From Verrucomicrobiota bacterium (GTDB lineage Bacteria; Verrucomicrobiota; Verrucomicrobiia; Limisphaerales; Fontisphaeraceae), in the NCBI GenBank assembly GCA_037139415.1, contig JBAXGN010000011.1:1-64000 (forward strand): a DNA stretch of 64,000 bases, given 5' to 3'. Numbering within the stretch: the first letter of the stretch is position 1; every line of letters begins with the position of its first letter. Position numbers and translations under genes: made by a program. The notes under the pieces were generated by a model that searched no databases, was not told the DNA's origin, and saw nothing but the letters and a program-made list of their open reading frames with translations. Shown one piece after another: positions 23,629 to 44,200 of this stretch.

Positions 23629-26600
23629 ATGAACACATATACGAACCAGGTGTGGGAAGGGTTTCGACTTATTTACGTGGTTGCATGTTTGGTCATCGTC
23701 GGCCTGCCGCTTGAGGCCACCGCCAAGTCCAGGCCTGCACGGCCAACCCTGCCTGAAGGGGAGTCCCTGATATTCCGAGCCAATGACCAGCAGACCAACT
23801 TTGTGGCCGATGCGGTCTCCGGCACGGCTTATTTAAAGTCGGCACAGTTCGTGGAAGGTTGGTCCGGTACGGCTTTGCTCATGGCCGGTGAGACGCCTTC
23901 CCATTGCATGATCCCAGTCCAGGGAACCCGCAAACGGCCCAACTTCTCGCCTAACACCGGCAGTATTCGCTTGTGGTTTTCTACTGCATGGTCCAGCACT
24001 TCACTAGGTGGTCAAGGATCAGGTAAGCATGCTCGTCTGTTAGAGATAGCACACGTGAATGCGAAGACGCCAACTGGTTTTGCGCTGTACTTCGATTCGG
24101 ACGGTAACACCGTGTACTTGAGCGCGTATCAAGCTGGTCAGGCTGTGGATATCGTTCATGCTACTGTTGCTCTGGGAAAGGATGTCTTTCACCAACTGGG
24201 GCTGGTTTACGGTCCAGAAGCCACGTCACTGGTTTTGGACGGTAAGATTATCGCTACTGGCCGGGGATTGCCGGCGTTAGCCCAACCAACCGACCTGGAT
24301 AGCTGGATGTGCTTTCTGGGCTCAAATCCGGGCGGGCTGGAGAAACTGGAAGGCCAACTGGATGAAATTTACTTCTTTCCGTATGCCTGCACGGAAGCAC
24401 AGTTTGGGTGGGACTATCAATCGCAGAGCCTGTTGGCAGCCATGGGACCAGTTTCTGTGCAGGAATCCATAGCACACTATCGGACTTTGAGGCGTCATCA
24501 TGGGCCGCAGCGCGCCGAGGGATGGCCGTCGCCGCCCGATCCCGGACCCGGCGGTGGCGGTGGCAGCACTACCAACGACATGCCGTTCTATAGCAGTTGG
24601 GAATTGCCTTATAACACCAACGTTCTGCACATTTCCAAGCTGGTGTACGATACCAATGGCACTGCCTTGACCATTGCGGGCGGAGAAACCAATGGGGTGT
24701 ATGACTTGTTCTATACCACGAATCTGGTGGGCAACCATGTGACCAACAGCCAGTGGACGTGGTTCTTTCGCGGCGCTCCCGGCCAGACCAACTTCGTTCA
24801 CACCAATGCGCCCGTGCCATTTTGCCTGTATTTGGTAGGTGCCACCAACGATACGGATGGGGATTTGCTGACGGATGCCTATATTCTGCTGGTCAGCAAA
24901 ACCGCAACCAATCTCGTGGACACCGATGGGGATGGCATGCCGGATATCTGGGAACTGAAATATGGGCTGAACCCGCTGCGCAACGATGCGGAGGATGATT
25001 TCGACGGCGATTGGGTCTCCAACTACCAGGAATATATCAACCAGACCAATCCCCGCGATGACATGATTTTCGCGTGGGGCGACAATTTCCACCGGGAATG
25101 CCTGGTGCCGCCGGATTTGCGGGACGCCCGGCAGTTGGCGGGCGGGTACGGTTTCAGCCTGGCGTTGCGCAGCAACGGCACCGTGGTTGCGTGGGGCGGG
25201 CTGACCAACGTCCCAGCGGCCGTCACCAACGTGGCGGCCATCGGCGCAGCCTGGTACGACGCGATTGCCTGGTTGAGCAACGGGACCGTGATCCGTTGGA
25301 ATGCTACCACCAACTATTCCTGGAGCACCAACGGCGCAGCGTACGCCCTGGGCTATGATTACGTCCTCTGCCTGCGCAGCAACGGCACCCTGGCCTACTG
25401 GGGACAGGGTTCCTGGCGGACCAACCTGGGGCGCGGCCCCAGCAATGTGATGGCGCTGGCGGCGGGAGCCAATCATGCGGCGGCGGTGCTGTCCAACGGG
25501 CAGGTCACGGCGTGGGGGCAGAATGCCGGCAGCCTGCATTGGAACCTGACGAATGTCCCGGCCTCGCTATCAGGCGTGGCCACCCTTGCCTCCGGCTACC
25601 TGCACACGCTGGCGTTGCGCAGCAACGGGACGGTATCGGCGTGGGGTTATCCATACAATGGCCTGACGAACGTGCCCGCCGGCCTGAGCAACGTGGCGGC
25701 CCTGGTGGCGGGCATGACCTACAGCCTGGCGCTGGACAGCAACGGCACGCTCCACAGTTGGGGGCCGCTGGTGGTGCCGGAAGATCTGACGGCGGTGAAA
25801 CTGATCGGCGGCGGGGCCAGGCATGCCCTGGCATTGCGGACCGGACGGCAAACGCCGGTGGTGCTGGCCGAACCGATCAGCCAGAGCGGATTATCCGGCA
25901 CCAACATCACGCTGAATGCGCTCGGGTATGGACTGGCGGGGGTTAAATACCAATGGTTATGGGATGGTAGTGCGATTGCCGGGTCCACCAACGCCAGTTA
26001 CACGGTCACCAACCTATCCACCAGCAACGAAGGGGCGTACCAAGTGGTGATCGCCACCGGAGCGGGCGCGCGCACCAGCCGGGTGGCCCAAGTGGTCCGG
26101 TTACAGCCGCCGGTGGTGTCGGCCACCAGTCCTGGGGTGCCCAGCACCTTATGGGCGAGCAAAACCCTCATGCTGGCGGTTTACGCCACCGCCAATAGCA
26201 CGTATCCGCATCGCATCCATTACCAATGGAAGAAGGACGGCGCCACCCTCCCGGTGCTGGAACAGTCATTCATTGCCCTGCCGGACCCGTTGACCGGTCT
26301 GACCAACTTTGAAGGGGAATACACCGTGCAGGTATATAACGCGGCGGGGGGAACCAACGTGGGCACCTGGACGGTGCAGGCGGTATTGCCGGGCATGCTG
26401 GCAATGTGGGGCGACAATCAATCCGGTCAATGCCAGCGCCCGGCCAACCTGACCAACCTCCTGAGCATGGCGGCGGGCGAGACCTATTCGCTGGCGCTGC
26501 GCGGCAACGGCACGGTGCTGGGGTGGGGCAGCGGGGCTGGCACCAATGTCCCGGCGGGCTTGAGCAATGTGGTGGCCGTGGCGGCAGGCTATGCGCATGG

Positions 26601-29088
26601 CCTGGCCCTGCAAGCGGACGGCGCCGTGGTGGCCTGGGGCGACACCAACAACCCGGCACTCCATATCCCTGCCAACCTCGGACCCGTGGCCAGCCTGAGC
26701 GCGGGCAGCAACTTCTGCCTTGCGTTGCTCACCAGCGGTGAGGTAGTGGGTTGGGGCGTGAATGACTTTGGGCAAACCAACGTGCCACCGGGAAGCAACC
26801 CGGCCAAGGCGATTGCGGCGGGGGCATGGCATGGGGTGGCGCTGCGGGAGAATGGCACCGTGGCGGCCTGGGGGAATAACCAGATGGGACAAACCAACGT
26901 GCCCGCCAGTGCCACCAATATCCTGAGTGTGACGGCTGGCCGGGCGCATACTCTGGCGGTGCGCCGTGACGGCAGAGTTCTGGCCTGGGGTTTGAATGAC
27001 GCGGGCCAGTGCGATGTGCCCGCCGGGTTGAGCAACGTGACCGCCGTGGCGGCGGGGGCCAATTACAGTGTGGCGCTCAAGGACGACGGCACCCTGGTGC
27101 TGTGGGGGCAGGGCGTGGGGGTGCAGACCAATGAGATCGCCAGCCTCAACAATGTCATCCGGATTGCCGGGGGCGGCGCCCATGCGCTGGCGTTGGGCGG
27201 CACCCGCCCGGCACCCGTGAAACAGCCGGGCATGGTGGCGGCCTGGGGCCGGAACCTGAATCGGCAGTGCGAGCCGCCGCCGGGCTTTACCAATGCGGTG
27301 GCCGTGGCAGCGGGCGAAACCCACTCCGTGGCGGTGCGGGAAGACGGCACCGTGCTGGCCTGGGGCAATAACGACGCGGGGCAATGCAATGTGCCCGGCG
27401 GGCTGAGCAACATTGTGGCGGTGGCGGCGGGATATGGCCACAACCTGGCGCTGGATGATTTGGGCCGGCTGACGGCCTGGGGCGATACCAACCAGCCGGC
27501 GGCGGTGCTGGTGCCCACCAACCTGATGCGGGTATCCGCCATCAGCGCGGGGAGCAACTACAGCCTGGCCTTGCTGACCAACGGCCAGATGGTGGCCTGG
27601 GGCGTGAACGCTGCCACCAATGTCCCGGCGGATTTAACCAACGTGATCGAGTTGGCGGCGGGGGCCTGGCACGGGTTGGCGGTGACGACCCATGGCACGG
27701 TGGTCGGGTGGGGTAACAACGCCTTCGGCCAGACCAATGTGCCGCCTGAAGCCACGAACGCGGTCGCCGTGGCGGCGGGGCGCAGCCACAGCCTGGCGTT
27801 GCGGCGGAACGGAACGGTGGTGGCCTGGGGCGATAATACCTGCGGCCAGACCAATGTCCCTGCCGGCTTGAACAACGTCATGGCCATTGCCGCCGGGGCC
27901 ACCTTCAGCGTGGCCTTGAAGAATGATCGAAGCCTCGTGGTCTGGGGGCAAGGGGCCGTTACAATACTGGAAGAATACGCCGGGCTGTCCAACGTGGTTT
28001 CAGTTGCGGGCGGCGGCTATCATGCTTTGGCCACCCTGCACCAGCCTTCGCTTTCTTACCCGGTGACGGTGGAAAAAGACCTGTTGCTGATCTACAACAC
28101 CAATTCAACGGACAGCCTATGGGTGAAAGATTATTACCTGGCCCACCGCCCATTTGCCGCGAAAGCGAATGTGTTGGGAATTGGATGCACTAACATAGAA
28201 ACCGTAACTCCTCCGGAAATGGCCAATGATATTGGCTCACCATTCCAAACTTGGTTGAATGCTAACCCCACGTTGCGTCCGCAATATATTGTGTTGTTTT
28301 TGGATGTTCCATCGCGAGTGAACTGGAGCAATACACCCGGTGTTTATGACATGGATCATCTTTCTGCTCCCAGTGTCAGTGTTCAACTTCACAGTAATTT
28401 CTATACGGGGATTCTGCCGTTCGTAACCCATATCAATATGGGCGGAACGAATGATTGCCGGGCTTACATTGACAAGTTGGAATTCTTCGGGACCAATTAT
28501 TCTCTTGGAAAAATTGTTATTCGAGCGCATCCGGAGGGGTATTCCGAGGGGAATTATTATTTTGATGAATGTAAGCCAGCCAATATTTTAGGCAGCTTTG
28601 CGGGACCGGCGCGGCAAGGTGTATTAGGCGCAGGAGTGCCGGAAACGAACATTACTTTTATTACTGATCCTCCACCAATCACTCGCGGCACAAATGTTTT
28701 AGGTTATGTAAGTTGGGGCACTTACAGCTTAGGACGAGACTATGTTATTCAGGGTTCCAATAGCATCCCTGTCCTATTCTATGGCAATAGCGGTGGTTAT
28801 CTAATTCAAACCGTAGAATCTTATAATGGAGTAAGAGATTATTTTCACAGCATCGGACAGGGAACTTTTTGCCAATGGTTCTCAAGTAATGCGTTCGGTG
28901 GAATCAATTTTTCAAATACACCGATGGGGGCGGCTTCCCATGTTGGTGAGCCATACACGCCAGGCATAAACGATAGCAGGCTGTATTTTGGTTTATGGGC
29001 TTCTGGGCACCGTTTTTGCGCAGCGGCTTGGGTCTCAGCTAGAACACATCTGCTACAAATTATTGGAGATCCCATTGTAATAAAATAA
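23629..29088 (+). CDS. Giant surface protein: LamG domain, three RCC1 propellers, TIGR03790-like C-terminus
   Basis: 1,819 residues. Signal peptide about 1-32; LamG/concanavalin-like domain about 50-260; Gly-rich linker; a calcium-type TSP3 segment (DTDGDGMPDIWELKYGLNP, about 430-475); RCC1 propeller 1 (about 478-735); two Ig-like domains (about 745-915); propeller 2 (about 923-1195); propeller 3 (about 1202-1475). Each propeller has seven blades marked by AWG-type turns (for example VVAWGDNTCGQTNVP). The last 340 residues (from LLIYNTNSTDSLWVKDYYLAH) resemble TIGR03790, an uncharacterised family found in exosortase-bearing species. No PEP-CTERM tail. The stop is 6 bp before the first array gene, so it probably heads that operon. 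Confidence 0.85.
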   Translation: MNTYTNQVWEGFRLIYVVACLVIVGLPLEATAKSRPARPTLPEGESLIFRANDQQTNFVADAVSGTAYLKSAQFVEGWSGTALLMAGETPSHCMIPVQGTRKRPNFSPNTGSIRLWFSTAWSSTSLGGQGSGKHARLLEIAHVNAKTPTGFALYFDSDGNTVYLSAYQAGQAVDIVHATVALGKDVFHQLGLVYGPEATSLVLDGKIIATGRGLPALAQPTDLDSWMCFLGSNPGGLEKLEGQLDEIYFFPYACTEAQFGWDYQSQSLLAAMGPVSVQESIAHYRTLRRHHGPQRAEGWPSPPDPGPGGGGGSTTNDMPFYSSWELPYNTNVLHISKLVYDTNGTALTIAGGETNGVYDLFYTTNLVGNHVTNSQWTWFFRGAPGQTNFVHTNAPVPFCLYLVGATNDTDGDLLTDAYILLVSKTATNLVDTDGDGMPDIWELKYGLNPLRNDAEDDFDGDWVSNYQEYINQTNPRDDMIFAWGDNFHRECLVPPDLRDARQLAGGYGFSLALRSNGTVVAWGGLTNVPAAVTNVAAIGAAWYDAIAWLSNGTVIRWNATTNYSWSTNGAAYALGYDYVLCLRSNGTLAYWGQGSWRTNLGRGPSNVMALAAGANHAAAVLSNGQVTAWGQNAGSLHWNLTNVPASLSGVATLASGYLHTLALRSNGTVSAWGYPYNGLTNVPAGLSNVAALVAGMTYSLALDSNGTLHSWGPLVVPEDLTAVKLIGGGARHALALRTGRQTPVVLAEPISQSGLSGTNITLNALGYGLAGVKYQWLWDGSAIAGSTNASYTVTNLSTSNEGAYQVVIATGAGARTSRVAQVVRLQPPVVSATSPGVPSTLWASKTLMLAVYATANSTYPHRIHYQWKKDGATLPVLEQSFIALPDPLTGLTNFEGEYTVQVYNAAGGTNVGTWTVQAVLPGMLAMWGDNQSGQCQRPANLTNLLSMAAGETYSLALRGNGTVLGWGSGAGTNVPAGLSNVVAVAAGYAHGLALQADGAVVAWGDTNNPALHIPANLGPVASLSAGSNFCLALLTSGEVVGWGVNDFGQTNVPPGSNPAKAIAAGAWHGVALRENGTVAAWGNNQMGQTNVPASATNILSVTAGRAHTLAVRRDGRVLAWGLNDAGQCDVPAGLSNVTAVAAGANYSVALKDDGTLVLWGQGVGVQTNEIASLNNVIRIAGGGAHALALGGTRPAPVKQPGMVAAWGRNLNRQCEPPPGFTNAVAVAAGETHSVAVREDGTVLAWGNNDAGQCNVPGGLSNIVAVAAGYGHNLALDDLGRLTAWGDTNQPAAVLVPTNLMRVSAISAGSNYSLALLTNGQMVAWGVNAATNVPADLTNVIELAAGAWHGLAVTTHGTVVGWGNNAFGQTNVPPEATNAVAVAAGRSHSLALRRNGTVVAWGDNTCGQTNVPAGLNNVMAIAAGATFSVALKNDRSLVVWGQGAVTILEEYAGLSNVVSVAGGGYHALATLHQPSLSYPVTVEKDLLLIYNTNSTDSLWVKDYYLAHRPFAAKANVLGIGCTNIETVTPPEMANDIGSPFQTWLNANPTLRPQYIVLFLDVPSRVNWSNTPGVYDMDHLSAPSVSVQLHSNFYTGILPFVTHINMGGTNDCRAYIDKLEFFGTNYSLGKIVIRAHPEGYSEGNYYFDECKPANILGSFAGPARQGVLGAGVPETNITFITDPPPITRGTNVLGYVSWGTYSLGRDYVIQGSNSIPVLFYGNSGGYLIQTVESYNGVRDYFHSIGQGTFCQWFSSNAFGGINFSNTPMGAASHVGEPYTPGINDSRLYFGLWASGHRFCAAAWVSARTHLLQIIGDPIVIK

Positions 29089-29094: not shown

Positions 29095-29787
29095 ATGAAA
29101 ATAATAATAGTATTTGAGTTTTTCGCATACTTGGCGGCCACACTGCCAGGGGTTTGTGCCACGCAATTCATCAACCTCGATTTCGAATCTGCGCAGGTTG
29201 GAAATCTCGCTGCTGGGCAAGGCGAATTCGTTCAGGTTAGTAATGCATTTCCCGGCTGGAAATTTTATGTCGGCAATGAAGAACGCCCTAATGCCTATCA
29301 TAATGGCTCTAGTCTTGGCGCTAACAGCGTCTCCATTCTCGGCCCGAACTTTGGTGCGCCTAATCAAATTCTCAGCGGGAACTACACCGCCTTGCTTCAA
29401 GGCGCCTATAATTATAATTTAGACCGCGCCAGCGCCTCTCTAGCCCAAGTCGGAGAGGTACCAGATTGGGCAAATTCCATCCAGTTTAAACTATCCGCCT
29501 GGCCGGGTGATTTTCGCATCTCATTGGCTGGAAACAATCTGCCACTATTTGTGGTGGAAACCAATGCGGCATACAAAGTGATGGGGGCGGATGTGTCTTG
29601 GTATAAGGGAGCTGCGTGTGAACTACGGTTCACCTCGTTTTATCAAGGTGTCCAATATGTCAATTATGATTTATTGGACGACATTGTGTTTTCCTCCGAC
29701 GCTGTTCCCGAACCCGGCACTCTGGCGCTCTGGTGCGTCGGAGGTTTGATCGGTTACACGCTCGGCAGAAAACGAAGAGTGCCCTGA
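29095..29787 (+). CDS. PEP-CTERM array protein 1 (type A)
   Basis: 230 residues: signal peptide (ending GVCAT), then the array fold starting FINLDFESAQ and the type A hallmarks GWKFYVGNEERP, ILGPNFGAPNQILSGNYT and DWANSIQFKLS. The C-terminal sorting signal is VPEPGTLALWCVGGLIGYTLGRKRR. The central domain is closest to array gene 9, while the anchor matches array gene 12, an early sign of mosaic descent. The fold resembles the carbohydrate-binding-like PEP-CTERM exported proteins; no catalytic residues. It follows the RCC1 gene by six bases. Confidence 0.88.
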   Translation: MKIIIVFEFFAYLAATLPGVCATQFINLDFESAQVGNLAAGQGEFVQVSNAFPGWKFYVGNEERPNAYHNGSSLGANSVSILGPNFGAPNQILSGNYTALLQGAYNYNLDRASASLAQVGEVPDWANSIQFKLSAWPGDFRISLAGNNLPLFVVETNAAYKVMGADVSWYKGAACELRFTSFYQGVQYVNYDLLDDIVFSSDAVPEPGTLALWCVGGLIGYTLGRKRRVP

Positions 29788-29817
29788 ATTTGTCATGCGT
29801 TATCCATCCCTAACGAC
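29701..29817 (+). repeat. Direct repeat at 3' end of array gene 1
   Basis: Matches 37047-37166 with one 3-bp indel and a few substitutions. It covers the anchor-coding region, the stop codon and about 30 bp of the following noncoding sequence (TTATCCATCCCTAACGAC). Confidence 0.92.
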
Positions 29818-29878
29818 CTCATCTGGTGTTGGCACAGCGAGCAGTGGGCGATCCGTTAATCCGCAGATAAACAAGAAT

Positions 29879-30607
29879 ATGAAAAATTTGCACCTGAAGA
29901 ATTTGGTTACACTCCTTCTAGGAATTGGGAGTTGCCAGTCTAATATGGTTTGTGGAGCAACGGTTTTCCAAAACCTTAATTTTGAGGAAGCCACGGTTCC
30001 TGATTTGCCTAGCGGCAGTTGGAACTCTAGTGAACCCGTTGCTGATGCATTACCCGGTTGGCGGGCATTTATTGGAACGTTTGAAGTGACCACAGTTCCA
30101 CATAATGCGCACCCGTTTGGTGCTGTAAGCGTAATTATTTATGGCCCCTATTCCTGGAGCAGCGATATTCTTTCTGGTAACTACTCAGCAGGGCTTGCCG
30201 GGGCCTATTATTACCAGCCAGAATTCCGCAATGCGTCCATCGCTCAGGTTGGCGCTGTCCCAATGTGGGCCAATAGCATTCAATTCAAAGTCTCTCCCTG
30301 GGCTCATGCGTTTACGGTTTCGCTTGGCGGCAACGTGTTGCCGACGCAGCAACTCTCCTCCACGGCCCAGTATTTAATCTGGGCAGCCGATGTGTCGGCG
30401 TATGCTGGAAACGAAACGGAATTGCGCTTTACGTCCATGTACGATGGCCTGGGACCGCCCAACCTGATTAGCCTCGATGACATTCAATTCTCCACCGATA
30501 TGGTTCCAGAGCCCAGCGCATTGGCGCTAGGGTGCACAGGAGGCCTGGTTTGCTGGCGGGCGGTGCGCAGGAAAAATAAAGCCTCTATTCCGCATGGTAC
30601 TGAGTGA
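29879..30607 (+). CDS. PEP-CTERM array protein 2 (type B)
   Basis: 242 residues from the ATG at 29879 (the frame is open further upstream but the signal peptide begins here). Type B core: VFQNLNFEEATVPDLPSG, GWRAFIGTFEVTT, WANSIQFKVSPWAHAFTVSL, ELRFTSMYDG. The sorting motif VPEPSALALGCTGGLVCWRAVRRK is followed by an unusually long polar tail. The DIQFSTDMVPEPSALAL join is shared with array gene 11. A 90-bp gap separates it from gene 1, the widest in the array. Confidence 0.87.
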   Translation: MKNLHLKNLVTLLLGIGSCQSNMVCGATVFQNLNFEEATVPDLPSGSWNSSEPVADALPGWRAFIGTFEVTTVPHNAHPFGAVSVIIYGPYSWSSDILSGNYSAGLAGAYYYQPEFRNASIAQVGAVPMWANSIQFKVSPWAHAFTVSLGGNVLPTQQLSSTAQYLIWAADVSAYAGNETELRFTSMYDGLGPPNLISLDDIQFSTDMVPEPSALALGCTGGLVCWRAVRRKNKASIPHGTE

Positions 30608-30608
30608 T

Positions 30609-31307
30609 ATGAACAAGCGCCTATTGAATCCACTGCGTTTGGTTTTGCTGGGGATATTTGCAGCCGCAAATGTTCCGGCAGCAGTTTCTTTCGTCAATTT
30701 GAATTTTGAAGATGCCCAAATACCCATTGTGCCTTCGGGTCAAGCCGGGACTACTGAATCTGTTGCCAACGCCCTGCCCGGATGGCGCGCATTTATTGGA
30801 GTAAACGAATCCGCTACCGTATGGCACAATAGTGTTCCGCTTGGATCCACGCGGGTAATCGTGTTTGGACCATATTTTGACACTTGGGGTATTCTTTCCG
30901 ATAACTATTCAGCATGTGTTGGCGGTGCATACAACTATTTTCCCGATCAGCGTGACGCGTCGATCACCCAGACCGGCACGGTTCCTGTGTGGGCTAACGG
31001 CATTCAGTTTATGGTATCTCCATGGGCGCATGCTTTCACGGTATCTTTGGCCGGCAATGTCCTGCCCACCGTGACCGTTTCGTCCAACGCCAGTTACATG
31101 GTCTGGGGCGCGGATATTTCAGCCTATGCGGGGAGCACAACCGAGTTACGTTTTACTTCCCTGTACGACGGCACGGGTTTGCCTAATTTGACCAGCCTTG
31201 ATGACATTCAATTTATGGCGGAGGCTGTCCCTGAACCCGGCACCATCGCGTTGTTTGCCCTTGGCGGCATTGGGCTGTTTCTAGCCGCAAGACGCCGTGA
31301 CTCATGA
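30609..31307 (+). CDS. PEP-CTERM array protein 3 (type B)
   Basis: 232 residues from the ATG at 30609, one base after the previous stop. The signal peptide ends near VPAAV. The C-terminal half (from about 30985, GIQFMVSPWAHAFTVSLAGN onward) is nearly identical in DNA to genes 10 and 12. Its anchor IALFALGGIGLFLAARRRDS is instead the one carried by gene 5. The stop overlaps the start of the truncated gene 4 (ATGA). Confidence 0.88.
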   Translation: MNKRLLNPLRLVLLGIFAAANVPAAVSFVNLNFEDAQIPIVPSGQAGTTESVANALPGWRAFIGVNESATVWHNSVPLGSTRVIVFGPYFDTWGILSDNYSACVGGAYNYFPDQRDASITQTGTVPVWANGIQFMVSPWAHAFTVSLAGNVLPTVTVSSNASYMVWGADISAYAGSTTELRFTSLYDGTGLPNLTSLDDIQFMAEAVPEPGTIALFALGGIGLFLAARRRDS

Positions 31308-31471
31308 AAAACATAAACACAATTTTCTCCAGTTTCATGCTCGCGATTTCATGGTGGCCGCTGACGAGTAACGCCCAGGCCTTCATAAATTTGGGGTTTG
31401 AATCAGCCGTGATTAAACCCATACCCAACAATCTGAGCCACTCGTTGCAAATTGGATACGAGTATGCATAA
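31304..31471 (+). pseudogene. Truncated PEP-CTERM array gene 4 (5' fragment)
   Basis: A 55-codon frame: the signal peptide MKNINTIFSSFMLAISWWPL and the first mature residues AFINLGFESAVIKPIP are almost identical to genes 6 and 7. Homology then stops abruptly and a TAA follows after 15 unrelated codons. The core and sorting signal are missing. Its 3' end overlaps the ATG of gene 5 (31464), so the fragment may still serve to pass ribosomes along the operon. Confidence 0.85.
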
Positions 31472-32156
31472 AACAAAACCACGAAATTTTGTCCCTCCGA
31501 TTTTCATCTGCGCGGCATTGCTTATTATCCCAAGGCTAGCCAGTGCCGAAATCCTATTCACGAACCTGGGTTTTGAATCGGCAAAAATTGTGCCAATTCC
31601 TGATGATGTTTATGGGCGGGTGCAATTTGATCAAGCCGTACCAGGGTGGACTGCGTATATTGGCTCCGAGCCGCAAACAATGATCTTGTACAACAATATG
31701 TACCTCAGCTCATCAGGGTTCGCATTAATGAAAACAAATGGATATGTTTACGATGGAAAATATGCCATGGTGTTGCAGACGGGCCTTCGGACAGGTCAGC
31801 AAAATGTTTCATTATCACAAACCGGATTAATCCCTGCAGGGACGCAGTCCCTGCAGTTCAAATCCTCTGGGGAACGCTATGCGTCGTTTGATGTTGGAAT
31901 CAATGGACAGGCTCTGCCCCTCGTTATTCTGCAAACATTTGCGGGTTATGATCTTTATGCTGCAGACATTTCCCAGTTTGCAGGTCAAACGGTTGAACTG
32001 AAATTCAATGAATACATGGTCATTGGCTATCCGGGAGAGCTTTCTTTGGATTCAATCATTTTCTCACCTGTAGCCGTGCCAGAGCCAGCCTCGATCGCGT
32101 TGTTTGGCCTTGGCGGAATTGGGCTGTTTCTAGCCGCAAGACGCCGTGACTCATGA
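31464..32156 (+). CDS. PEP-CTERM array protein 5 (divergent type C)
   Basis: 230 residues from the ATG at 31464, which lies within the fragment gene 4. The signal peptide ends IPRLASAE. Core: ILFTNLGFESAKIVPIPDD, GWTAYIGSEPQ, LSQTGLIPAGTQSLQFK. The sorting motif is VPEPASIALFGLGGIGLFLAARRR. The core is the most divergent of the array and noticeably AT-rich, yet the anchor-coding DNA is nearly identical to gene 3. The stop overlaps the next start (ATGA). Confidence 0.87.
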   Translation: MHKTKPRNFVPPIFICAALLIIPRLASAEILFTNLGFESAKIVPIPDDVYGRVQFDQAVPGWTAYIGSEPQTMILYNNMYLSSSGFALMKTNGYVYDGKYAMVLQTGLRTGQQNVSLSQTGLIPAGTQSLQFKSSGERYASFDVGINGQALPLVILQTFAGYDLYAADISQFAGQTVELKFNEYMVIGYPGELSLDSIIFSPVAVPEPASIALFGLGGIGLFLAARRRDS

Positions 32157-32842
32157 AAATCATAAACACAATTTTCTCCAGTTTCATGCTCGCCATTTCA
32201 TGGTGGCCGCTGACGAGTAACGCCCAGGCCTTCATAAATTTAGGGTTTGAATCAGCCGTGATTAAACCCATACCCGACCCGAGCCATGTGGAATGGGACG
32301 CTGCAATGCCTGGGTGGTCAGGCTATTATGGAGACCTATATACTGGTGTACACCAGCGAACATCGTTGCTTTACAATACGCTCAATATCGGCTCGCCCGG
32401 CATCGCTTTGCTTGGCCCTGAGTCTGGTTATCATATTGAAGGGAACTATTGTTTGGCACTTCAGACTGGTGGTGCCGATTATGCTACAGATGTCTATATA
32501 ACACAAACTGGAGTCATACCAAATAATGCGAACTCCCTTCAATTTATAGGTTCCACAGCAAGAAATGGTTTTGCTGTTTCTCTGAACGGACAAACAATCA
32601 ACATGGCTGTGATGAAGGCCTTCGGAAGTTCTTATTACCTATACGGTGCTGATGTCTCAGGCCTTGCTGGGCAAACTGTTGAATTACGAATAACTGATAT
32701 TACTGCATTTGCATCCCCCAGTCTGTTCATTATTGATTCTTTCAATTTTTCACCCGAGGCTGTTCCTGAACCCGGCACCATCGCTTTACTTTGCCTGGGT
32801 AGCATTGGGCTGTTTCTAGCCGCAAGACGCCGCGCCTCATGA
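32153..32842 (+). CDS. PEP-CTERM array protein 6 (type C)
   Basis: 229 residues. The first roughly 190 bp (signal peptide, AFINLGFESAVIKPIPDPSH and WDAAMPGWSGYYGD) are nearly identical to gene 7, after which the two diverge strongly (here VHQRTSLLYNTLNIGSPG). The sorting motif VPEPGTIALLCLGSIGLFLAARRR combines the gene 3/5 type of anchor. It starts within ATGA and ends within ATGA. Confidence 0.88.
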   Translation: MKIINTIFSSFMLAISWWPLTSNAQAFINLGFESAVIKPIPDPSHVEWDAAMPGWSGYYGDLYTGVHQRTSLLYNTLNIGSPGIALLGPESGYHIEGNYCLALQTGGADYATDVYITQTGVIPNNANSLQFIGSTARNGFAVSLNGQTINMAVMKAFGSSYYLYGADVSGLAGQTVELRITDITAFASPSLFIIDSFNFSPEAVPEPGTIALLCLGSIGLFLAARRRAS

Positions 32843-33525
32843 AAACCATAAACACAATTTTCTCCAGTTTCATGCTCGCCATATCATGGTGGCCGCTGAT
32901 GAGTAACGCCCAAGCCTTCATAAATTTAGGGTTTGAATCAGCCGTGATTAAACCCATACCCGACCCGAGCCATGTGGAATGGGACGCTGCAATGCCTGGG
33001 TGGTCAGGATATTATGGAGATACTTATACTGGGATTAAAAAACGCACGTCTCTGGTTTACAATGACGTCAGTATTGGCTACCCAAGTATAGATTTATTGG
33101 GGCCAGGGAGTGGATATCATATCAATGGAAATTATTGCGTGTTGCTTCAAACTGGTGTCGCATTCTATTTTACCGATGTGTACCTGACGCAAACCGGGAT
33201 TGTTCCCGCTGACGCAAACTCTCTACAATTTGTAGGCTCCAATCCACGCAATGGTTTTGGCATTTCACTAAACGGACAACCCATTGCCATGTCGGTGCAG
33301 AAGACCGTTGGAAATTATTATCAGTACGTCGGTGATATTTCAGGCTTTGCCGGTCAAACAGTGGAGTTGAAAATTACGGATATTGCCGTGGCGGGTTCGA
33401 TAGGTGATTTTTTTATTGATTCCATCGCCTTTTCCACCGAAGCCGTCCCTGAGCCTGGCACCATCGCGTTGCTTGGCCTTGGCGGCGTTGGTATGTTTCT
33501 GGTTACTCGACGCCGTGTCTCATGA
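32839..33525 (+). CDS. PEP-CTERM array protein 7 (type C)
   Basis: 228 residues. The N-terminus is shared with gene 6; the middle (TYTGIKKRTSLVYNDVSIG, IDLLGPGSGYH) is shared with gene 8. The anchor VPEPGTIALLGLGGVGMFLVTRRR is its own variant. The gene is thus a bridge between two neighbours, consistent with unequal exchange. Overlaps both neighbours by 4 bp. Confidence 0.88.
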   Translation: MKTINTIFSSFMLAISWWPLMSNAQAFINLGFESAVIKPIPDPSHVEWDAAMPGWSGYYGDTYTGIKKRTSLVYNDVSIGYPSIDLLGPGSGYHINGNYCVLLQTGVAFYFTDVYLTQTGIVPADANSLQFVGSNPRNGFGISLNGQPIAMSVQKTVGNYYQYVGDISGFAGQTVELKITDIAVAGSIGDFFIDSIAFSTEAVPEPGTIALLGLGGVGMFLVTRRRVS

Positions 33526-34235
33526 AAATCAGAAACACAGTATTCTCCAGTCTCATGCTCGCCATTTCATGGTGGCCGCTGACGAGTAACGCCCAAGCCT
33601 TCATGAACCTAGACTTTGAAGCCGCAACAATAATACCAATAGTTAACGATCCATATCAGGTGGAATGGGACGCTGCAATGCCTGGGTGGTCAGGATATTA
33701 TGGAAATACTTATACTGGGATAAAAAAACGCACGTCTCTGGTTTACAATACTCTTAGTATTGGCGACCCAAGTATAGATTTGCTCGGCCCAGGGTCTGGA
33801 TATCAAATGAGTGGTAATTATTGTCTAGCTCTTCAAACTAGTGTTACCTTTTATTTTACCGATGTCTATATAACGCAAACCGGTACAATTCCTGCCGACG
33901 CTAACTCGATTCAATTCAAAGGTTCCAGCGCACGCAATGGTTTTATCGTTTCCTTAGATGGACACCCCATCAGCATGCCCGCGTTAAAAACTGACGGGAG
34001 TTATTACCAGTATGGCGGAGATATTTCTGCATTTGCCGGTCAAACTGTGGAGCTAAGAATTACGGATATTGCCGTTCCTAACTCAGAAAGTATGTTTTTT
34101 ATTGATTCCATCGCCTTTTCCACCGAAGCCGTTCCTGAGCCTGGTGTCATTACTTTATGCTGTGCCGGAGGTATGATGGTCTGGTGGTTACTGGGGCGGA
34201 GACGAAGAACCGAAAAACAGCAAAACGTTGGTTAA
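33522..34235 (+). CDS. PEP-CTERM array protein 8 (type C)
   Basis: 237 residues. Signal peptide and core are of type C (AFMNLDFEAATIIPIVNDP, WDAAMPGWSGYYGN, IQFKGSSARNGFIVSLDG), but the anchor is of the CCAGGMMVWWLLGRRRR type, followed by a polar tail ending KQQNVG that genes 9 and 10 also carry. The shared DNA runs across the stop codon into the start of the next gene, so the exchange unit crosses the gene border. Confidence 0.88.
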   Translation: MKIRNTVFSSLMLAISWWPLTSNAQAFMNLDFEAATIIPIVNDPYQVEWDAAMPGWSGYYGNTYTGIKKRTSLVYNTLSIGDPSIDLLGPGSGYQMSGNYCLALQTSVTFYFTDVYITQTGTIPADANSIQFKGSSARNGFIVSLDGHPISMPALKTDGSYYQYGGDISAFAGQTVELRITDIAVPNSESMFFIDSIAFSTEAVPEPGVITLCCAGGMMVWWLLGRRRRTEKQQNVG

Positions 34236-34236
34236 T

Positions 34237-34962
34237 ATGAAAAGGTCATCTGCATTACTGCTTGTGCTGTTGGGATTATGGTTTGGCCATGCCGAATCCG
34301 TTTTCTGCGCGCCGCAGTTCATTAATTTGGATTTCGAGTCCGCACAAGTTCCTAATTTGCCAGCGGGACAAGCAGGTGGGGATGTTTCAATTAATGATGC
34401 ATTTCCAGGTTGGAAATTTTTCGTAGGAAGCCAAGAACGGCCTTTTGCTGTGCATAATGATGTCAATCTGGGTGCTAATGGCGTCTCCATTCTTGGCCCG
34501 AACTTTGGTGCACCTAATCAAATTCTCAGCGGGAACTACACCGCGGTATTGCAAGGGGCTTATAATTATAATCTAGATAATGCCAATGCATCCTTGGCTC
34601 AAGTTGGGGAGGTGCCAGACTGGGCGAATTCGATACAGTTCAAGTTAAGTCCTTACACGGATTCATTTCGTGTTTCATTGAGTGGGAATAGTCTTCAACT
34701 TACTGCACTCGAAACCACTGCCACATATACCATCATGGGAGCGGATGTTTCATGGTACAAGGGAAGCACATCAGAACTGAGGTTCACCTCATATTACCAA
34801 GGGTTTCGATACATCAATTACCACTATTTGGATGATATTGTTTTCTCCCCAGACGCTGTTCCCGAGCCCGGCGTTATTACTTTATGGTGTGCCGGAGGTA
34901 TGATGGGCTGGTGGTTGGTGAGGCAGGGACGAAGAACCTGTAAACCGCAAAACGTTGGTTAA
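34237..34962 (+). CDS. PEP-CTERM array protein 9 (type A)
   Basis: 241 residues from the ATG at 34237, one base after the preceding stop. The core is type A like gene 1 (QFINLDFESAQVPNLPAGQ, GWKFFVGSQERP, ILGPNFGAPNQILSGNYT) though the two are 5 kb apart. The anchor is VITLWCAGGMMGWWLV with tail PQNVG, as in genes 8 and 10. Confidence 0.88.
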   Translation: MKRSSALLLVLLGLWFGHAESVFCAPQFINLDFESAQVPNLPAGQAGGDVSINDAFPGWKFFVGSQERPFAVHNDVNLGANGVSILGPNFGAPNQILSGNYTAVLQGAYNYNLDNANASLAQVGEVPDWANSIQFKLSPYTDSFRVSLSGNSLQLTALETTATYTIMGADVSWYKGSTSELRFTSYYQGFRYINYHYLDDIVFSPDAVPEPGVITLWCAGGMMGWWLVRQGRRTCKPQNVG

Positions 34963-34963
34963 T

Positions 34964-35695
34964 ATGAAAAGGTCATCAGCATTGTTAAAACCTATTTTGG
35001 CACTTTTAGGAATATTCGTTTTCCATGCCAACCCAGTCTTGGGCGAGGTTGCATTTCAAAACCTTAATTTTGAAAATGCGACGGTCCCTAATTTGCCACC
35101 AGACAGTGCCAATCCAAGTGAAGACGCGACCGCAGCGTTTCCAGGATGGCGAATTTTTTATGGCAGCTATGAGCAAACCACCGTTGTCCACAATACAGTT
35201 CCATTAGGCTCTACCAGGGTCATGATATTCGGTCCAAATTATAAATACCAAGGCATTATATCTGGAAAATATTCTGCCTGTCTTGCTGGTGCCTACAACT
35301 ATTATCCTGATCAACGTAATGCCTCTATCGCCCAAACCGGCACGGTTCCTGTGTGGGCTAATGGCATCCAGTTCATGGTATCTCCATGGGCGCATGCTTT
35401 CACGGTATCTTTGGCCGGTAATGTATTGCCAACAGTGCCCGTCTCCTCCAACGCCAATTTCATGGTCTGGGGTGCGGATATTTCAGCCTATGCGGGGAGC
35501 ACAACCGAATTACGTTTTACTTCCCTGTACGACGGCACGGGTTCACCTAATTTGACCAGCCTTGATGACATTCAATTTATGGCGGAGGCTGTTCCCGAGC
35601 CTGGCACCATCGCTTTATGCTGTGCCGGAGGTATGATGGGCTGGTGGTTGCTGGGGCGGGGACGAAGAACCGGTAAACAGCAAAACGTGGGTTAA
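34964..35695 (+). CDS. PEP-CTERM array protein 10 (type B)
   Basis: 243 residues from the ATG at 34964. The signal peptide (LLKPILALLGIFVFHANPVL) is nearly identical to gene 11, the 3' core (35350-35606) nearly identical to genes 3 and 12, and the anchor (CCAGGMMGWWLLGRGRR, tail KQQNVG) to genes 8 and 9. Three different closest relatives for three parts make it the clearest mosaic. One base separates it from each neighbour. Confidence 0.88.
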   Translation: MKRSSALLKPILALLGIFVFHANPVLGEVAFQNLNFENATVPNLPPDSANPSEDATAAFPGWRIFYGSYEQTTVVHNTVPLGSTRVMIFGPNYKYQGIISGKYSACLAGAYNYYPDQRNASIAQTGTVPVWANGIQFMVSPWAHAFTVSLAGNVLPTVPVSSNANFMVWGADISAYAGSTTELRFTSLYDGTGSPNLTSLDDIQFMAEAVPEPGTIALCCAGGMMGWWLLGRGRRTGKQQNVG

Positions 35696-35696
35696 T

Positions 35697-36427
35697 ATGA
35701 AAACATCTGCATTACTAAAACCTATTTTGGCACTTTTAGGAATATTCGTTTTCCATGCCAACCCAGTCTTGGGCGAGGTCGCATTTCAAAACTTTGATTT
35801 TGAAAGTGCCAACATACCTAATGTTCCATCAGGCCAATCCGGAGTAGATGAGCTTACTCTCGTAGCGTTACCGGGTTGGAAAACCATGTTTGGACCTTAC
35901 GAAACGACCAACGTTTTACATAATACTATACGTTAGGGTCCGCTGCTATTTCTGTGTTTGGTCCTAATGTCCAGTATGCATCTTATGTTCTCCAAGGGCG
36001 ATACTCCGTTTGCCTGATCGGAGGCTATCGTTATTTGCCAGAAGAACGTAATGTCTCTGTTTCCCAAACGGGTACCATTCCCAATTGGGCTAACAGCATC
36101 AAGTTCCTTGTCAATGCCAATGCACATGACTTTACGGTGGCGATGAATGGGAACCCCCTGTACATGCAAAAACTAACCACCAGCGGCAGTTATGCTACGT
36201 GGGGAGCTGATGCTTCCGCGTATGTGGGACAGACCGTTGATTTGCGATTCACCTCGCAATACATTTACGGTACGGTTAATCCCGTTTGGCTCGATGACAT
36301 TCAATTCTCAACCGATATGGTTCCAGAACCTAGTGCATTGGCTCTATTGTGTGGCGGGGGCATGGTTTGCTTGTGGATGATGGGGTGGAGACGAAAACCT
36401 GGTATTCAGCACAACGACGCTGGCTAA
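35697..36427 (+). pseudogene. PEP-CTERM array gene 11, frameshifted (type B)
   Basis: The reading frame from the ATG at 35697 stops at 35936 after ETTNVLHNTIR. The remaining homology (LGSAAISVFGPNVQYASYV to the sorting motif VPEPSALALLCGGGMVCLW) continues in the next frame to 36427. Comparison with the paralog sequence HNTVPLGS places a single missing base at about 35930. All other parts look intact, so this is either a recent mutation, phase-type switching or an assembly error. No slippery heptamer typical of programmed frameshifting is obvious. Confidence 0.85.
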
Positions 36428-36428
36428 G

Positions 36429-37136
36429 ATGAAAAGTTATCCTTCATTTCCCATTTTATTAGTGTTAGGGTTACTAGTTTGCCATGTTGACAGGTCGTTG
36501 GCAGGGGTCACCTTCCAAAATCTGGATTTTGAACAAGCTTCAATCCCGGACCTGGCATCAAACCAGACTTCCGATGAGTTAGTAGTTAATGCTTTGCCTA
36601 GTTGGCGCGCATTTGCCGGTATGTATGAAGTCTCCACAATGTACCATAATAGCATTCCCATTGGGTCGACGAGAATAATCATTTTCGGTCCATTTTATCG
36701 GCATCCCGAACAAATCCTTTCCGGTAAATATTCTGCCTGTCTTGCTGGTGCATACAACTATTTTCCCGATCAGCGTGACGCCTCCATCGCCCAGACCGGC
36801 ACGGTGCCCGGGTGGGCCAATGGTATTCAGTTCAAAGTGGATATTTGGGCGCATGCCTTCACGGTTTCTTTGGCCGGCAATGTCCTGCCCACCGTGACCG
36901 TTTCGTCCAACGCCAGTTACATGGTCTGGGGCGCGGATATTTCAGCCTATGCGGGTAGCACAACCGAATTACGTTTTACTTCCCTGTACGACGGCACGGG
37001 TTCACCTAATTTGACCAGCCTTGATGACATTCAATTTATGGCGGAGGCTGTTCCTGAACCGGGCACCCTGGCGCTCTGGTGCGTTGGAGGTTTGATCGGT
37101 TGGTCCACGCTCGGCAGAAAACGAAGAGTGACCTGA
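36429..37136 (+). CDS. PEP-CTERM array protein 12 (type B)
   Basis: 235 residues. Signal peptide of its own type (ILLVLGLLVCHVDRSLAG), type B core with a 3' half nearly identical to genes 3 and 10 (TVSLAGNVLPTVTVSSNASY). The anchor VPEPGTLALWCVGGLIGWSTLGRKRR is that of gene 1. Last gene of the array; the downstream 30 bp also match those after gene 1. Confidence 0.88.
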   Translation: MKSYPSFPILLVLGLLVCHVDRSLAGVTFQNLDFEQASIPDLASNQTSDELVVNALPSWRAFAGMYEVSTMYHNSIPIGSTRIIIFGPFYRHPEQILSGKYSACLAGAYNYFPDQRDASIAQTGTVPGWANGIQFKVDIWAHAFTVSLAGNVLPTVTVSSNASYMVWGADISAYAGSTTELRFTSLYDGTGSPNLTSLDDIQFMAEAVPEPGTLALWCVGGLIGWSTLGRKRRVT

Positions 37137-38256: not shown

Positions 38257-41200
38257 TCAAGGGGAACTCAGGCGGTAGAAACGGGTAGTGGAATTCGTCC
38301 ACTTGGAATCGCGGAAAACTGCGGGGCTGCCTGTAAGGGTGTTCGTTTGCAGCGGAATCCAGACGGGGTTGACCAAGTCGGTGCAACCCTCCACCACGAT
38401 GACCAAGTTGCTGGTCCCGGTAATCGGAAACTGGAAACCGTTGGTACGAATGCCAAAACCCGGCGTACTGGTTTGTGCCTTCGGATTCCACAGCAGGGTG
38501 GGCAGACCGCCAAACGTCGCGCCCCAGTTCGTAGTTCCCGGCAAATAATAGACGGTTGCGGTGTCATCAAATGCGAAGATGCCTGAACCGGGAATGGGGG
38601 CGTTACCCAGAAAGTAGATTCCGGCCAGGCTGCTGCAAGAATAGAACGCAATATCCTCGATCCCGATGACATTGGGGCCGATAAATACGCTGGTCAGGTT
38701 GGCGCAGAAGGCGAAGGACAGGTTACCGATATTAGTGACGTTGCTGGGAGTCGCATAACGGCTGGCGGCTCTGCCCGCCGGGTATTGGATGAGGGTGGCC
38801 CGGCTCTTATCAATTAAGACCCCGTCCACACTGCCATAGGCCGAGTTCTGTGGGGCCACCGTGATTGCCAGCAAGCTGGGGCAGTTGAAGAATGAAGGGT
38901 TGTCAATACGGGTTACGCCCGAGCCAATGGCGACGTTGGTCAAGCCTCCGCAGTTGTTAAACGAGGCGTAGCCGAGGCTGAGCACGCTGTTGGGGATGGT
39001 CACACTCGTCAGCTTCGAACAGCAATAGAACCCATAGTTTCCGATGCTCAGGACCGTGTTCGGGATCGGGGCGTTGGTCAGGCTGGCGCAATAGGCGAAC
39101 ACGCCGTTGGCAATACTGGTGACGCTGGCGGGAATGGTGATATCGGCGAGAATAACGGCCTCCATAAACGCCCAGTCTCCGATGTTAGTAACGGTGTTCG
39201 GGATGATATAACTGCTTTCCGTTTTAGCGGGCGGGTACTGGATGAGCCGGGTCTGGAGCTTGTCGAACAAGATACCGTTTGTACTGCAAAAGGCGGCATT
39301 CTGTGCGTCCACGGTGATCGCCAGCAGGCTGGTACAATAATAGAACACCCACCCCCCGATACTGGTGACGCTGGCGGAGATGGTCACGTTGGTCAAGCCA
39401 TGGCAGTAGGCGAAAGCCGCGTCCGAAATCTGAATGACACTATTGGGAATAGCCATGCGGGTCAGGCTGTCGCAAGACGCGAACGCGCTATTGCCAATGT
39501 TGGTGACGTTGGATGGAATGGTGACATTGGCCAGGTTGGCACAGGATTGGAACGCTCCGTCGCCGAGGCTGGTGAGGCTGAGGGAGAGGGAGACGTTGGT
39601 GAGCGAGGGACACCCGTTAAACGCGTTGTTGCCGAGGCTGACCACCTGATTGGGAATCGTGATGGTGGGCAAGCCGGTGCAACCAGCGAATACCCCGTCC
39701 GCCAGGCTGGTGAGGTTGGTGGGGAGGGAGACGTTGGTGAGCGCGGTGCAAGCGTTAAACGCATTATTGCCGAGGTTGGTGACTGCGCCGGGAATCGTGA
39801 CGTCGGTCAAACTGGTGCAGGAGGCGAACACCGAGTCTCCAAGGCTGGTGACAGTACCGGGGAGGAGGATGCCGGGCAGGCGGCTGCACGAATTGAACAC
39901 GTTGTTTCCGAGGATCGCGACCTTGGTTCCGAGGATGACGTTGGTCAGTCCCGAACAGGATTTGAACGCCCCGTCTCCAATCTCGCTGACACTGTCCGGA
40001 AGGGTGATGCGGCCCAAGCTGGTACACGAATCGAACACCCCGCCCCCAAGGCGCAGGAGGCCGTCGGATAACGTGACGCCCGTCAGATTGGAGCAGGAAG
40101 CAAACACGCTGATCCCGAGATTGGTGACACTGATGGGGATGATCACGTCGGTCAGGCCGCTGTTCTGCTGGAACGCCCCATCCCCAAGGCTGGTGACCGG
40201 CAGACCAGTAATCGTGGACGGGATGGCCACTGCCCCCTCGCCGCCTGTGTAGCTGGTGATGGTGATCGTGCCATTGTTGGTCGTGTACGTGTAAGGCACG
40301 GGAGGGTACACCAGTACGGGTTGGAGGCCAGCAAAGGCCGTGTCCCAGCCCGTGGTACCCAAGAAACAATAAAGGGTGACATGGTCGTCGCCGACAAAGA
40401 CAGACGAATCCGCAGCCGGAGCGTTGCCGTGGAAGTAGATGGTCAGCAGGTTGGGGCAATTGGCGAACGCGTAGGGACCGATATTGGTGACCGCGCTGCC
40501 GACGGTGACGGTGGCTAGGCTGCTGCAGGCATCAAAGGCATGGCTGCCGATGCTGGTAACGTGATTGGGAATCGTGACGCTGCCCAGCGCGAGACAGCCT
40601 GCGAACGCCCCGCCTCCCAGAGTGATAACGGTGCTGGGAATGGCGAGGCGGGTCAGGTTGGTACAAGAATTAAAGGCGTTGGTCCCGATGTTGGTGACGC
40701 TGTTACCGAAGAGGAGATTCGTCAGTCCGAGGCAGGCGTTGAACGCCCCGTCCCGGATGTCGGTGACGCTGTCGGGGAGGGTGACGCTGCCCAGGCTGGT
40801 GCAAGAGTCGAACGCATTGATCCCGATGTCGGTGATACTGGGCGTGAAGGTGATGCTGGTCAGATTGGTATTGTACTGGAATGCGCCGGCCCCGATACCG
40901 GTGACCGGCAGGCCGGTGATCGTGGCCGGGAGAACTACGGCTCCGCCAACGCCGGAGTAGCCGGTGATGGTGATGGTGCCGTTGTTGGTCGTGTAGGTGT
41001 AGGGCACGGGCGGATACAGGAGCAGCGGTTGGAGACCGGCCAATCCCGCATCCCAGCCCATGGTTCCAGCCAAGCGATAGAGGGTGAGCTGACTATCCCC
41101 GTTAAACAGAGACGCATCCACGACGGGCGCGTTGCCAAAGAAATAGACGGCGGCCAGGTTGGTACAATTGGCGAACGCGTAGGCCCCAATATTGGTAATG

Positions 41201-44200
41201 CTGGCGGGGATCGTCACGCTGGTCAGCGTGCCGTTCTGTTGGAACACCACGTCGCCGATGCTGGTGACGGGCAGACCGTTGACCGTGGCCGGGATGGTCA
41301 CCGCCCCGCCGTCCCCGGTGTAGCTAACGATGGTGAGCGTGCCGTTGTTGGTGGTGCAAATGAACGGTACCGGCGGAAACAACCAGACCGGCTGAAGCCC
41401 GGCAAGTCCGGCATCCCAACCCAAGGTCCCGGCGAGGCAATAGAGGGTGAGGCGGTTGTCATTCATGAAGGGGGTGGCATCCGAAGTCGGGGCATTGCCT
41501 TGGAAATAGACGGCCGTGAGGTTGGTGCAGTTTGCGAAGGCGTAGCTGCCGAGGCTCGTGACATGGCTACCGATCACGGCACTGGCCAGGCTGGCGCAGT
41601 CCGCGAATGCCTGGTTTCCGAGGCTGGTAACCTGGTTGGGAATCGTGAGGTTGGTCAGCGCGAGGCAGCCCGAGAACGCCCCGCTGCTGACGGTGAGGAG
41701 ACTGTTGGGAAGAACGAGGCCGCCTAGACTGGTGCAGGCGTTGAACGCATTGGTCCCGATGCTGGTGACCCCGTAGCCAAGACTGACATTGGTCAAGCTA
41801 CTGCACGAGGCGAAGGTGCCGTCCCCAATGCTGGTGACGCCATTGGGGATCGTGATGCTCGTCAGATTGGTGCAGGAAGCGAATGCGCTGCTCCCGATAT
41901 TGGTAACGCCGTCGGGAATGAAAATGTTGGTCAGGCTGCCGTTGTGTTGGAACGCCCCGGCCCCGAGGCTGGTTACAGCCCGGCCCGTGAGCGTGGCGGG
42001 GATGGTGATGATCCCGCCAGGGCCGGAGTAGCCGGTGATGGTGATGGTGCCGTTGTTGGTCGTGTAGAGGTAGGGCACGGGCGCGTACACTGACACGGTC
42101 GTACGACCGCCAAAGGTCGGGCCCCAGCCAGCAGCATCCGCCGGGCGATACACCGTCACTTGGTCGTCGCCGGTGAACACGTCCGAACCCAAGGTGGGAG
42201 CGTCGCCACTGAAATAAATGGCCGTCAAGTTCGTGCAGTTGCAGAAGCCGACATCACCAATGGAGGCGACGTGGTTGCCAATCGAGGCGTTGGTCAAGCC
42301 GGTGCAATAATAAAAGGCATGGGCTCCGATGGTGACCACGCTGTTGGGAATCGTGATGGTGGTCAGGGAGGAGCAGCCCCAGAACGACATCCGCTCGAGG
42401 TTGGTGACGCCGTTGCCGATGGTCACGTTGGTCAAACCGGTGCAATCCCGGAATCCGGAGTCCCCGATGCTGGTCACGGAGTCGGGGATCGAAACGCTCC
42501 CAAGCCCGGCGCAACCATTGAAGGCACCGACGCCGACGCGGGTCACGCCGCCGGGGATCGTGTAGCTTCCGGTCTTGCCCGCCGGGCACTCGACGACCAG
42601 CGTCTGCGGTTTATCAAACAAGACCCCGTCCGCGCTGCTATAGAAGGAATTGTTCGCACCCACCGAGATCTCCGCCATGCTGGAGCAACCGCCGAACACC
42701 GCATCGCCGAGGTTGGTGACGCTGTCGGGAATCACAATGTTGGTCAGCCCGAAGCAGGCGGCGAACGCCGAATTTCCGATGCTGGTGACGTTGGTGCCGA
42801 GGGTGACGCTACCGAGGCTGTAACAATTGTAGAACGCCGAATCGGCGATGGTGATAACGCTGCTAGGGATCGTCACCCTCGTCAGATTGCCGTTCCACCG
42901 GAACGCCGCGTCGCCGATGCTGGTGACCGGCAGCCCATTCAGGGTGCTGGGGATGTTTACCGCTCCGCGGATGCCCGTATATCCAGTGAGGTTGATCGTG
43001 CCATTATTGGTGGTGTAGGTGAATGGCGGCGTCAAATAGATCATCACGGTCGGGACGCCGTAGAAGGTGGGATCGCTCCAGCCCGTGGTGCCGGCCAGGT
43101 AGTAGATGACCGCATTGGCGTCCCCGCTGAACGTGCTCCAATCGGTGCGGGGTGCGTTGCCTTGGAAATAGAGGGCCGTCAGGTTGGTGCATCCCGAAAG
43201 GGCGGAAATTCCGACGCTGGACACATTGCTGCCGATCGTCATGCTGGTCAGGTTAATACAGGACTGGAACGCGTACGAGCCGACCAGGCGAACACTGTCG
43301 GGGAGCGTGGCATTCGTCAGGTTGTGGCACGCGGCGAACGCATAACTCGCGATGTTGGTGACGCCGTTGGGAACGGTGTACGCGCCGGGACGGCCCGCTG
43401 GGCATTGGAGGAGCACGGTCTGATCCTTGTTGAACCAGACGCCATCGAGACTGCTGTAGATGGGATTGGCGGGGTCCACGGTGATCACGGCCAGGTTGGG
43501 GCAGGAATCGAAGAGGTACATTCCGTTGTTAGTCGCGCTACTCCCGAGCACGACGCTGAGGAGGTTGGTGCAGGATTGGAAGGCCATGTCGCCAAGGTGG
43601 GTGACACGGTTGGAAATGGCGATGCTAGCCAGGCCGCCGCAGAAGCGGAAGGCCCAGCTTCCAATGGTGATGAGGTTGGTGCTGAGTGTAATGTTGGTCA
43701 GGCTGGAACACGCATAGAAAGTGGAGAATCCGATGTTGGTGACCGAGTTGGGAATCGTGACGTTGGTGAGGCTGGAGCAGTACTGGAAGGCGTAGTCTCC
43801 AAGGCTGGTGACGCTGCTGCCGATGAGGACGTTGCTCAGGCTGGTGCATTGATTGAAGGTCCAGTTGGGAATGCTGGTCAGGCCGTTGCCGATCGTGGCG
43901 ATGCTGAGGTTCGAGCACCCATTGAACGCGCTCATCCCGAGGGAATTGACGCGGTCGGGAATCGTGATACTGGTCAGGCTGGGGCATTGATCGAACGCAT
44001 AATTACCGATGCTGTGGACATTCGTGCCGAGGGTGACGTTGGTCAGGCGGTAGCATAGCTCAAACGCATTGGGTCCGATCATGGTGACGCCGTCCCCGAT
44101 CGTGGCGGTGCGCAGGGCCGGGCAGTAGGCAAACGCACTGTCTGCGAGGGTGCTGACGCTGTTGGGGAGGGTGAGGCTGGTGAGGTTTGTGCAGCCCTGA

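Follow-up and report, generated by a model that had tools for sequence, protein, structure and literature searches.

Introduction

The families of the PEP-CTERM/exosortase (EpsH) system expand rapidly within lineages, and tails from one species resemble each other more than they resemble those of other species (Haft et al. 2006, PMC1569441). In this study, we analyzed the first 64 kb of contig 11 (hereafter the window; 64,000 nucleotides) of the 7.9-Mb, 378-contig draft genome of a Verrucomicrobiota bacterium, in which twelve paralogous PEP-CTERM reading frames form a tandem array, head to tail on the plus strand, at positions 29095-37136. The array shares with the families described in 2006 the signal peptide, the tail composed of a PEP motif, a hydrophobic stretch, and basic residues, the presence of exosortases in the genome, the similarity of tails within a genome, and the fast gain and loss of copies. 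Unlike those families, it is tightly packed in an operon-like manner, has mosaic ends that are linked across gene junctions, and is joined to a gene for a protein with RCC1 repeats and a TIGR03790-like domain. As a tandem family whose members recombine, the array conforms to what is expected of PEP-CTERM proteins; the most useful new fact is the fixed partner gene, of which we found no description. The array probably arose by expansion of the second gene of a conserved pair and became mosaic through tandem duplication or unequal crossing-over together with local gene conversion.

Cassette-based loci for antigenic variation, of the vlsE, pilE/pilS, and msp2 type, are a second point of comparison. 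The array resembles them as a set of tandem, recombining paralogs for surface proteins. Unlike them, it has no apparent expression site or promoterless donors, no sign of rapid change was seen, and anchors rather than the presumably exposed cores are exchanged. The locus has the appearance of a gene family that evolves slowly beside a conserved partner gene, not of an antigen-switching machine. No description of such an array or of such a pair was found in the open-access literature, most subscription papers being outside the scope of the search.

Organization of the array

A preliminary description of this locus, made from the DNA sequence of the window, had counted twelve adjacent paralogs, eleven of full length. 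Twelve reading frames indeed lie head to tail, one of them a fragment, but only ten are intact genes. Gene 4 (31304-31471) is a 55-residue 5′ fragment with a signal peptide of type I, one of the two sequence types discussed below, and shows 97% identity over 126 bp to the start of gene 6. Gene 11 (35697-36427), whose core is B-like, is frameshifted, with a stop codon at 35934-35936 and the remainder continuing in another frame from about 35930; it is either a pseudogene or the product of a sequencing error. Each intact gene encodes a core of ~180 residues between a signal peptide and a PEP-CTERM tail (the anchor). The genes are separated by 1-bp gaps or overlap by 4 bp, as had been reported, and the single larger gap, after gene 1 (29095-29787), measures 91 bp (29788-29878) and not 90 bp. 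The first ~40 bp of this gap match the sequence 3′ of gene 12, as if the gap were a copy of the 3′ edge of the array and gene 1 had once been an array end. Gene 1 starts 6 bp downstream of the stop codon of the partner gene.

Recombination among the array genes

The pairwise homoplasy index (PHI) test across the array genes was significant (p<0.001), and in ten gene pairs the matching runs were reached in 0 of 5000 permutations. Part of such a signal could also arise from uneven rates along the gene, and we therefore examined silent sites; silent-site divergence (pS) was 0.7-0.8, which is near saturation, in most segments and 0.12-0.3 in the shared tracts. The longest exact blocks between copies that are otherwise diverged were 98, 95, 89, and 64 bp, the 98-bp block lying in the 3′ core of genes 10 and 12. 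The particular resemblances that the preliminary description had listed were reproduced at the nucleotide level: gene 10 (34964-35695; core B) shares its signal peptide with gene 11 (90% identity, including the 64-bp exact block), its 3′ core with gene 3 (93%) and gene 12 (89%), and its anchor with gene 8 (83%) and gene 9 (87%), and gene 1 shares core A with gene 9 (73/69%) and its anchor with gene 12 (36429-37136; core B; 90%). Shared blocks also cross stop/start junctions, as had been claimed, two of them exactly over 42 bp (31269-31310 = 32118-32159) and 31 bp (34220-34250 = 34947-34977). These results, together with the tree comparisons below, bear out the earlier expectation of recombination or gene conversion among the copies.

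The further proposal, that signal peptide, core, and anchor are combined differently in each gene, went too far and held clearly only for the anchor. In approximately unbiased (AU) tests, the signal-peptide and core trees were rejected by the anchor data (p<=1e-5) and the anchor tree was rejected by the data of the other segments, whereas the tree of the N-terminal core was accepted by the signal-peptide data (p 0.30) and by the C-terminal core data (p 0.13). The anchor is thus the clearly discordant module; of the three parts, for which the preliminary description had named a common tree as evidence against shuffling, only signal peptide and core gave compatible trees. The two halves of the core diverge together (rho 0.86 between them), and position in the array had no predictive relation to core similarity. 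Local homogenization also affects the C-terminal core half of genes 3, 10, and 12, which are 89-93% identical there, versus 60-65% in the N-terminal half. The three core types proposed earlier stood in part. Core A is common to genes 1 and 9, and core B is present in gene 2 (29879-30607), whose anchor is closest to that of gene 11, as well as in genes 3, 10, and 12; by contrast, gene 5, previously assigned to type C, is at best a remote member of that type and groups elsewhere (support 65).

Linkage across gene junctions

The anchor of a gene was correlated with the signal peptide of the following gene (rho 0.60, p 0.004), whereas the signal peptide and anchor of the same gene gave rho 0.26 (p 0.046), or 0.29 (p 0.06) on matched genes. 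Two runs display this linkage. In the first, type I anchors are present on gene 5 (31464-32156; divergent core), gene 6 (32153-32842; core C), and gene 7 (32839-33525; core C), and type I signal peptides on genes 6 and 7 and on gene 8 (33522-34235; core C). In the second, type II anchors are present on gene 8, gene 9 (34237-34962; core A), and gene 10, and the type II signal-peptide start on genes 9, 10, and 11. Gene 8, with a type I signal peptide and a type II anchor, closes one run and opens the next, and the type I junction recurs at gene 3 (30609-31307; core B, anchor type I) and gene 4. If recombination takes place inside neighboring cores, the duplicated unit is the junction, that is, the tail of one gene plus the head of the next; at the start of a run one then expects a gene with the run's anchor alone, at its end a gene with the run's signal peptide alone, and between them genes with both.

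By such a process, copies would be gained and lost when tandem duplication or unequal crossing-over breaks within the cores, and short tracts of gene conversion would be added. The anchor of one gene and the signal peptide of the next would stay joined while becoming linked to differing cores, and the second gene of the conserved pair would have been multiplied into a tightly packed, operon-like series. The likeness of PEP-CTERM tails within a genome that was noted in 2006 may be read in the same way, as junction-linked recombination between tandem copies.

Arrays in two relatives have a similar mixture of signal peptides, cores, and anchors. One, in genome G266, consists of seven genes in a row that all overlap by 4 bp, on a contig cut at one end; the other, in G023, has five genes. 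Genes 3 and 4 of G266 share 92% of the signal-peptide DNA and 44% of the core; for genes 4 and 5, the corresponding values are 59% and 74-85%. Repeats were also observed at both loci. The G266 contig ends inside the array beside exact repeats of 119 and 124 bp, and repeated blocks ~1048 bp apart occur at 5556-7000 of this locus (L082), downstream of the seven genes. The G023 array (L083) has an exact 109-bp direct repeat outside the genes, on both sides, and further shorter repeats.

The conserved gene pair

The upstream partner gene (23629-29088, plus strand) belongs to a module conserved in relatives. It encodes a protein of 1819 amino acids with a signal peptide, laminin-G-like, TSP3, Ig, and RCC1 repeats, and a C-terminal TIGR03790-like domain (28060-29085), which is the marker of the gene pair; it is without a PEP-CTERM tail. 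This domain scored 27 bits to TIGR03790, and with 27, 21, and 36 bits such domains lie below the cut-off of 67; the match covers only the first ~90 of 316 model positions. TIGR03790 is near-universal in the host's order, and the partner domain resembles the start of its model. Unlike TIGR03790 proper, the partner domain is mostly fused to RCC1/Ig repeats and has a PEP-CTERM gene adjacent to it wherever this could be checked.

We searched the host's order with the domain and found matches in 17 other genomes. Wherever enough downstream sequence was available, a PEP-CTERM gene of the array family lay behind the match on the same strand, usually 16-123 bp from the aligned region. Fragments or split genes account for the longer distances, and the four cases that seemed to deviate stop at the edge of a contig. 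RCC1 repeats were detected in nine of the ten partner proteins scanned, and Ig domains in many. The arrangement is present also at loci L044 and L045, and the two-gene module is itself repeated in some genomes (G115, G148, and G276; loci L045, L085, and L086). Among 388 sampled genomes of the phylum, of which few belonged to the host's order, the domain was found only in the present genome and thus appears, from these searches, to be restricted to the order. An orphan group of PEP-CTERM proteins, whose function thereby becomes open to testing in a phylum that is little known, is thus tied to a specific neighbor, a secreted RCC1 protein that carries a TIGR03790-like domain. Together, the RCC1/TIGR03790-like protein and the PEP-CTERM proteins might form an as yet undescribed two-component surface system, possibly one in which the TIGR03790-like domain processes or assembles the latter, and the array would let a bacterium vary the binding repertoire of the system by recombination of junction blocks; we regard this as unlikely.

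The array gene family is present in 72 of 293 genomes of the order and is absent from both genomes of the host's own family that were compared. Two named relatives of the array proteins come from metagenome-assembled genomes of Verrucomicrobia subdivision 3 and Pedosphaera sp., which suggests that the host's order is Pedosphaerales-like, and the viral contigs searched contained no relatives.

Age and selection of the cores

The ratio of nonsynonymous to synonymous divergence (dN/dS) of close core pairs was 0.07-0.25 where it could be estimated, silent sites being saturated in several pairs; the cores are under purifying selection. In a tree of 71 cores from the order, whose deep nodes are weakly supported (about 40), the array genes occupy three positions: the A and B cores lie together (support 100), the C cores form a second group (100), and gene 5 is placed elsewhere (65). 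These separate placements suggest that the cores are old. Across three arrays in different genomes, within-genome homogenization was higher for signal peptides and anchors (+0.077 and +0.090) than for cores (+0.035), which indicates that old cores sit between locally homogenized ends.

Predicted structure and sorting of the array proteins

A structural model of the core (predicted local distance difference test score, pLDDT, 81) gave CBM4-2 as its best Foldseek match (E 2.8e-4, template modeling (TM) score 0.41) and VIA-align Z values of about 10 with CBM61 and CBM4-2; CBM16, gingipain adhesin, and MAM domains were matched as well. The core is thus predicted to be a beta-sandwich resembling carbohydrate-binding modules (CBMs), and the modeled fold suggests that the array proteins probably bind sugar. 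The cores are like CBM4, CBM16, and CBM61 domains in predicted fold, but they have no Pfam CBM match. A sequence search of the PDB returned nothing meaningful.

The exosortase-type sorting signals named in the preliminary description were confirmed. Among nine array copies scanned, genes 1, 3, 5, and 6 passed the PF07589 cut-off and genes 1, 3, 5, 6, 10, and 12 that of TIGR02595, and genes 2, 8, and 9 scored just under both with the motif retained; in the genome-wide scan, 10 of the 11 array tails listed or expected passed the cut-off or nearly did so. The genome has five exosortase loci with matches above the PF09721 cut-off, ~20 further PEP-CTERM proteins scattered over it, and one distant relative of the array genes elsewhere. 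A scan for regulatory signals gave 23 promoter-like sites against 16.6 ± 3.8, and terminator-like sites were not above shuffles. The genes may be co-transcribed. Their small CBM-like products would be exported, and an exosortase would process the PEP-CTERM tails and attach the proteins outside the cell. Keeping old, constrained cores distinct would then provide a co-expressed set of binding proteins for the surface or matrix, rather than serial switching.

Alternative explanations

Several observations weigh against the expansion of a conserved pair by duplication and crossing-over, or against the role suggested for its products. The pairing is obligatory only from the partner gene to the PEP-CTERM gene: in the stretch read, the G023 array and many other PEP-CTERM genes of the family lack an RCC1/TIGR03790-like neighbor. 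Junction linkage was not significant in the G266 array (rho 0.25, p 0.19, six junctions). The fold match is moderate, and a Pfam scan of the array proteins (E<=0.1) detected only PEP-CTERM and no CBM family. Other origins were weighed against the same data. If different PEP-CTERM genes had repeatedly entered one site from other genomes and their ends had then been converted to the local type, the scattered positions of cores A+B, C, and gene 5 in the core tree and the homogenized ends would be explained; the deep nodes of that tree are weak, however, old duplications with loss explain it equally, and the flanking open reading frames (ORFs) scanned contained no mobile-element genes, so that we consider acquisition unlikely. 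Plain tandem duplication and divergence, with convergence or constraint acting on signal peptides and anchors, would fit the compositional constraint on these segments and the joint divergence of the core halves. Yet the likeness extends to DNA and silent sites, shared tracts run across stop codons, and the anchor data reject the core trees; divergence without recombination, very unlikely on this evidence, was rejected on the PHI and permutation results, the silent sites, and the AU tests. It is equally improbable that the mosaic and the frameshift are products of short-read chimeras within a repetitive array. The draft is fragmented, exact repeats reach 98 bp, and the G266 contig stops next to its own long repeats, but 98 bp is below the usual read length, the mosaic consists mostly of blocks diverged by 5-20%, which misjoining could not create, and independent arrays in relatives have a similar pattern. 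Local errors, such as the frameshift in gene 11, are possible.

The preliminary description had gone further and proposed a system that generates antigen variants, a dedicated locus where recombination reshuffles signal, core, and anchor into new surface proteins. The strong recombination signal, the tracts across stop/start junctions, and the surface-type proteins agree with it. Nevertheless, the array contains ten complete genes, each with its own start, signal peptide, and anchor, and no apparent expression site with incomplete silent donors, and no diversifying selection was seen on the regions expected to be exposed, with core dN/dS about 0.1-0.25 (0.07-0.25 in the close pairs for which it could be estimated) and silent sites mostly saturated. 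Signal peptides have remained with their cores (AU p 0.30), and discordance is greatest in the anchor, which is not exposed in a sortase-like model, so that its exchange would leave an exposed epitope unchanged. No recombinase or invertase Pfam family was found in the twenty flanking ORFs scanned, a scan that ended at 54.7 kb; general RecA-type recombination requires no dedicated enzyme. The anchor also travels with the signal peptide of the next gene, as tandem duplication predicts. An antigen-variant system is thus unsupported. We judge such a system quite unlikely, and an antigen-switching cassette was rejected in view of the complete copies, the purifying selection, and the lack of a recombinase in the scanned ORFs.

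Genomic neighborhood of the array

A Pfam scan of the flanking ORFs identified GH10, GH28, and carbohydrate esterase genes in the neighborhood, which is consistent with a polysaccharide-using lifestyle. Upstream of the array, a PEP-CTERM protein with a different core is encoded on the opposite strand (21920-22612, minus strand). Very large BspA-type leucine-rich-repeat proteins flank the region (1929-5396, plus strand; 38257-44685, minus strand), and their genes contain DNA tandem repeats at 2395-2842 and 39557-39851. Three tandem F5/8 type C (galactose-binding) domains are encoded at 51189-52610, with a DNA repeat unit of 441 bp and ~79% matches.

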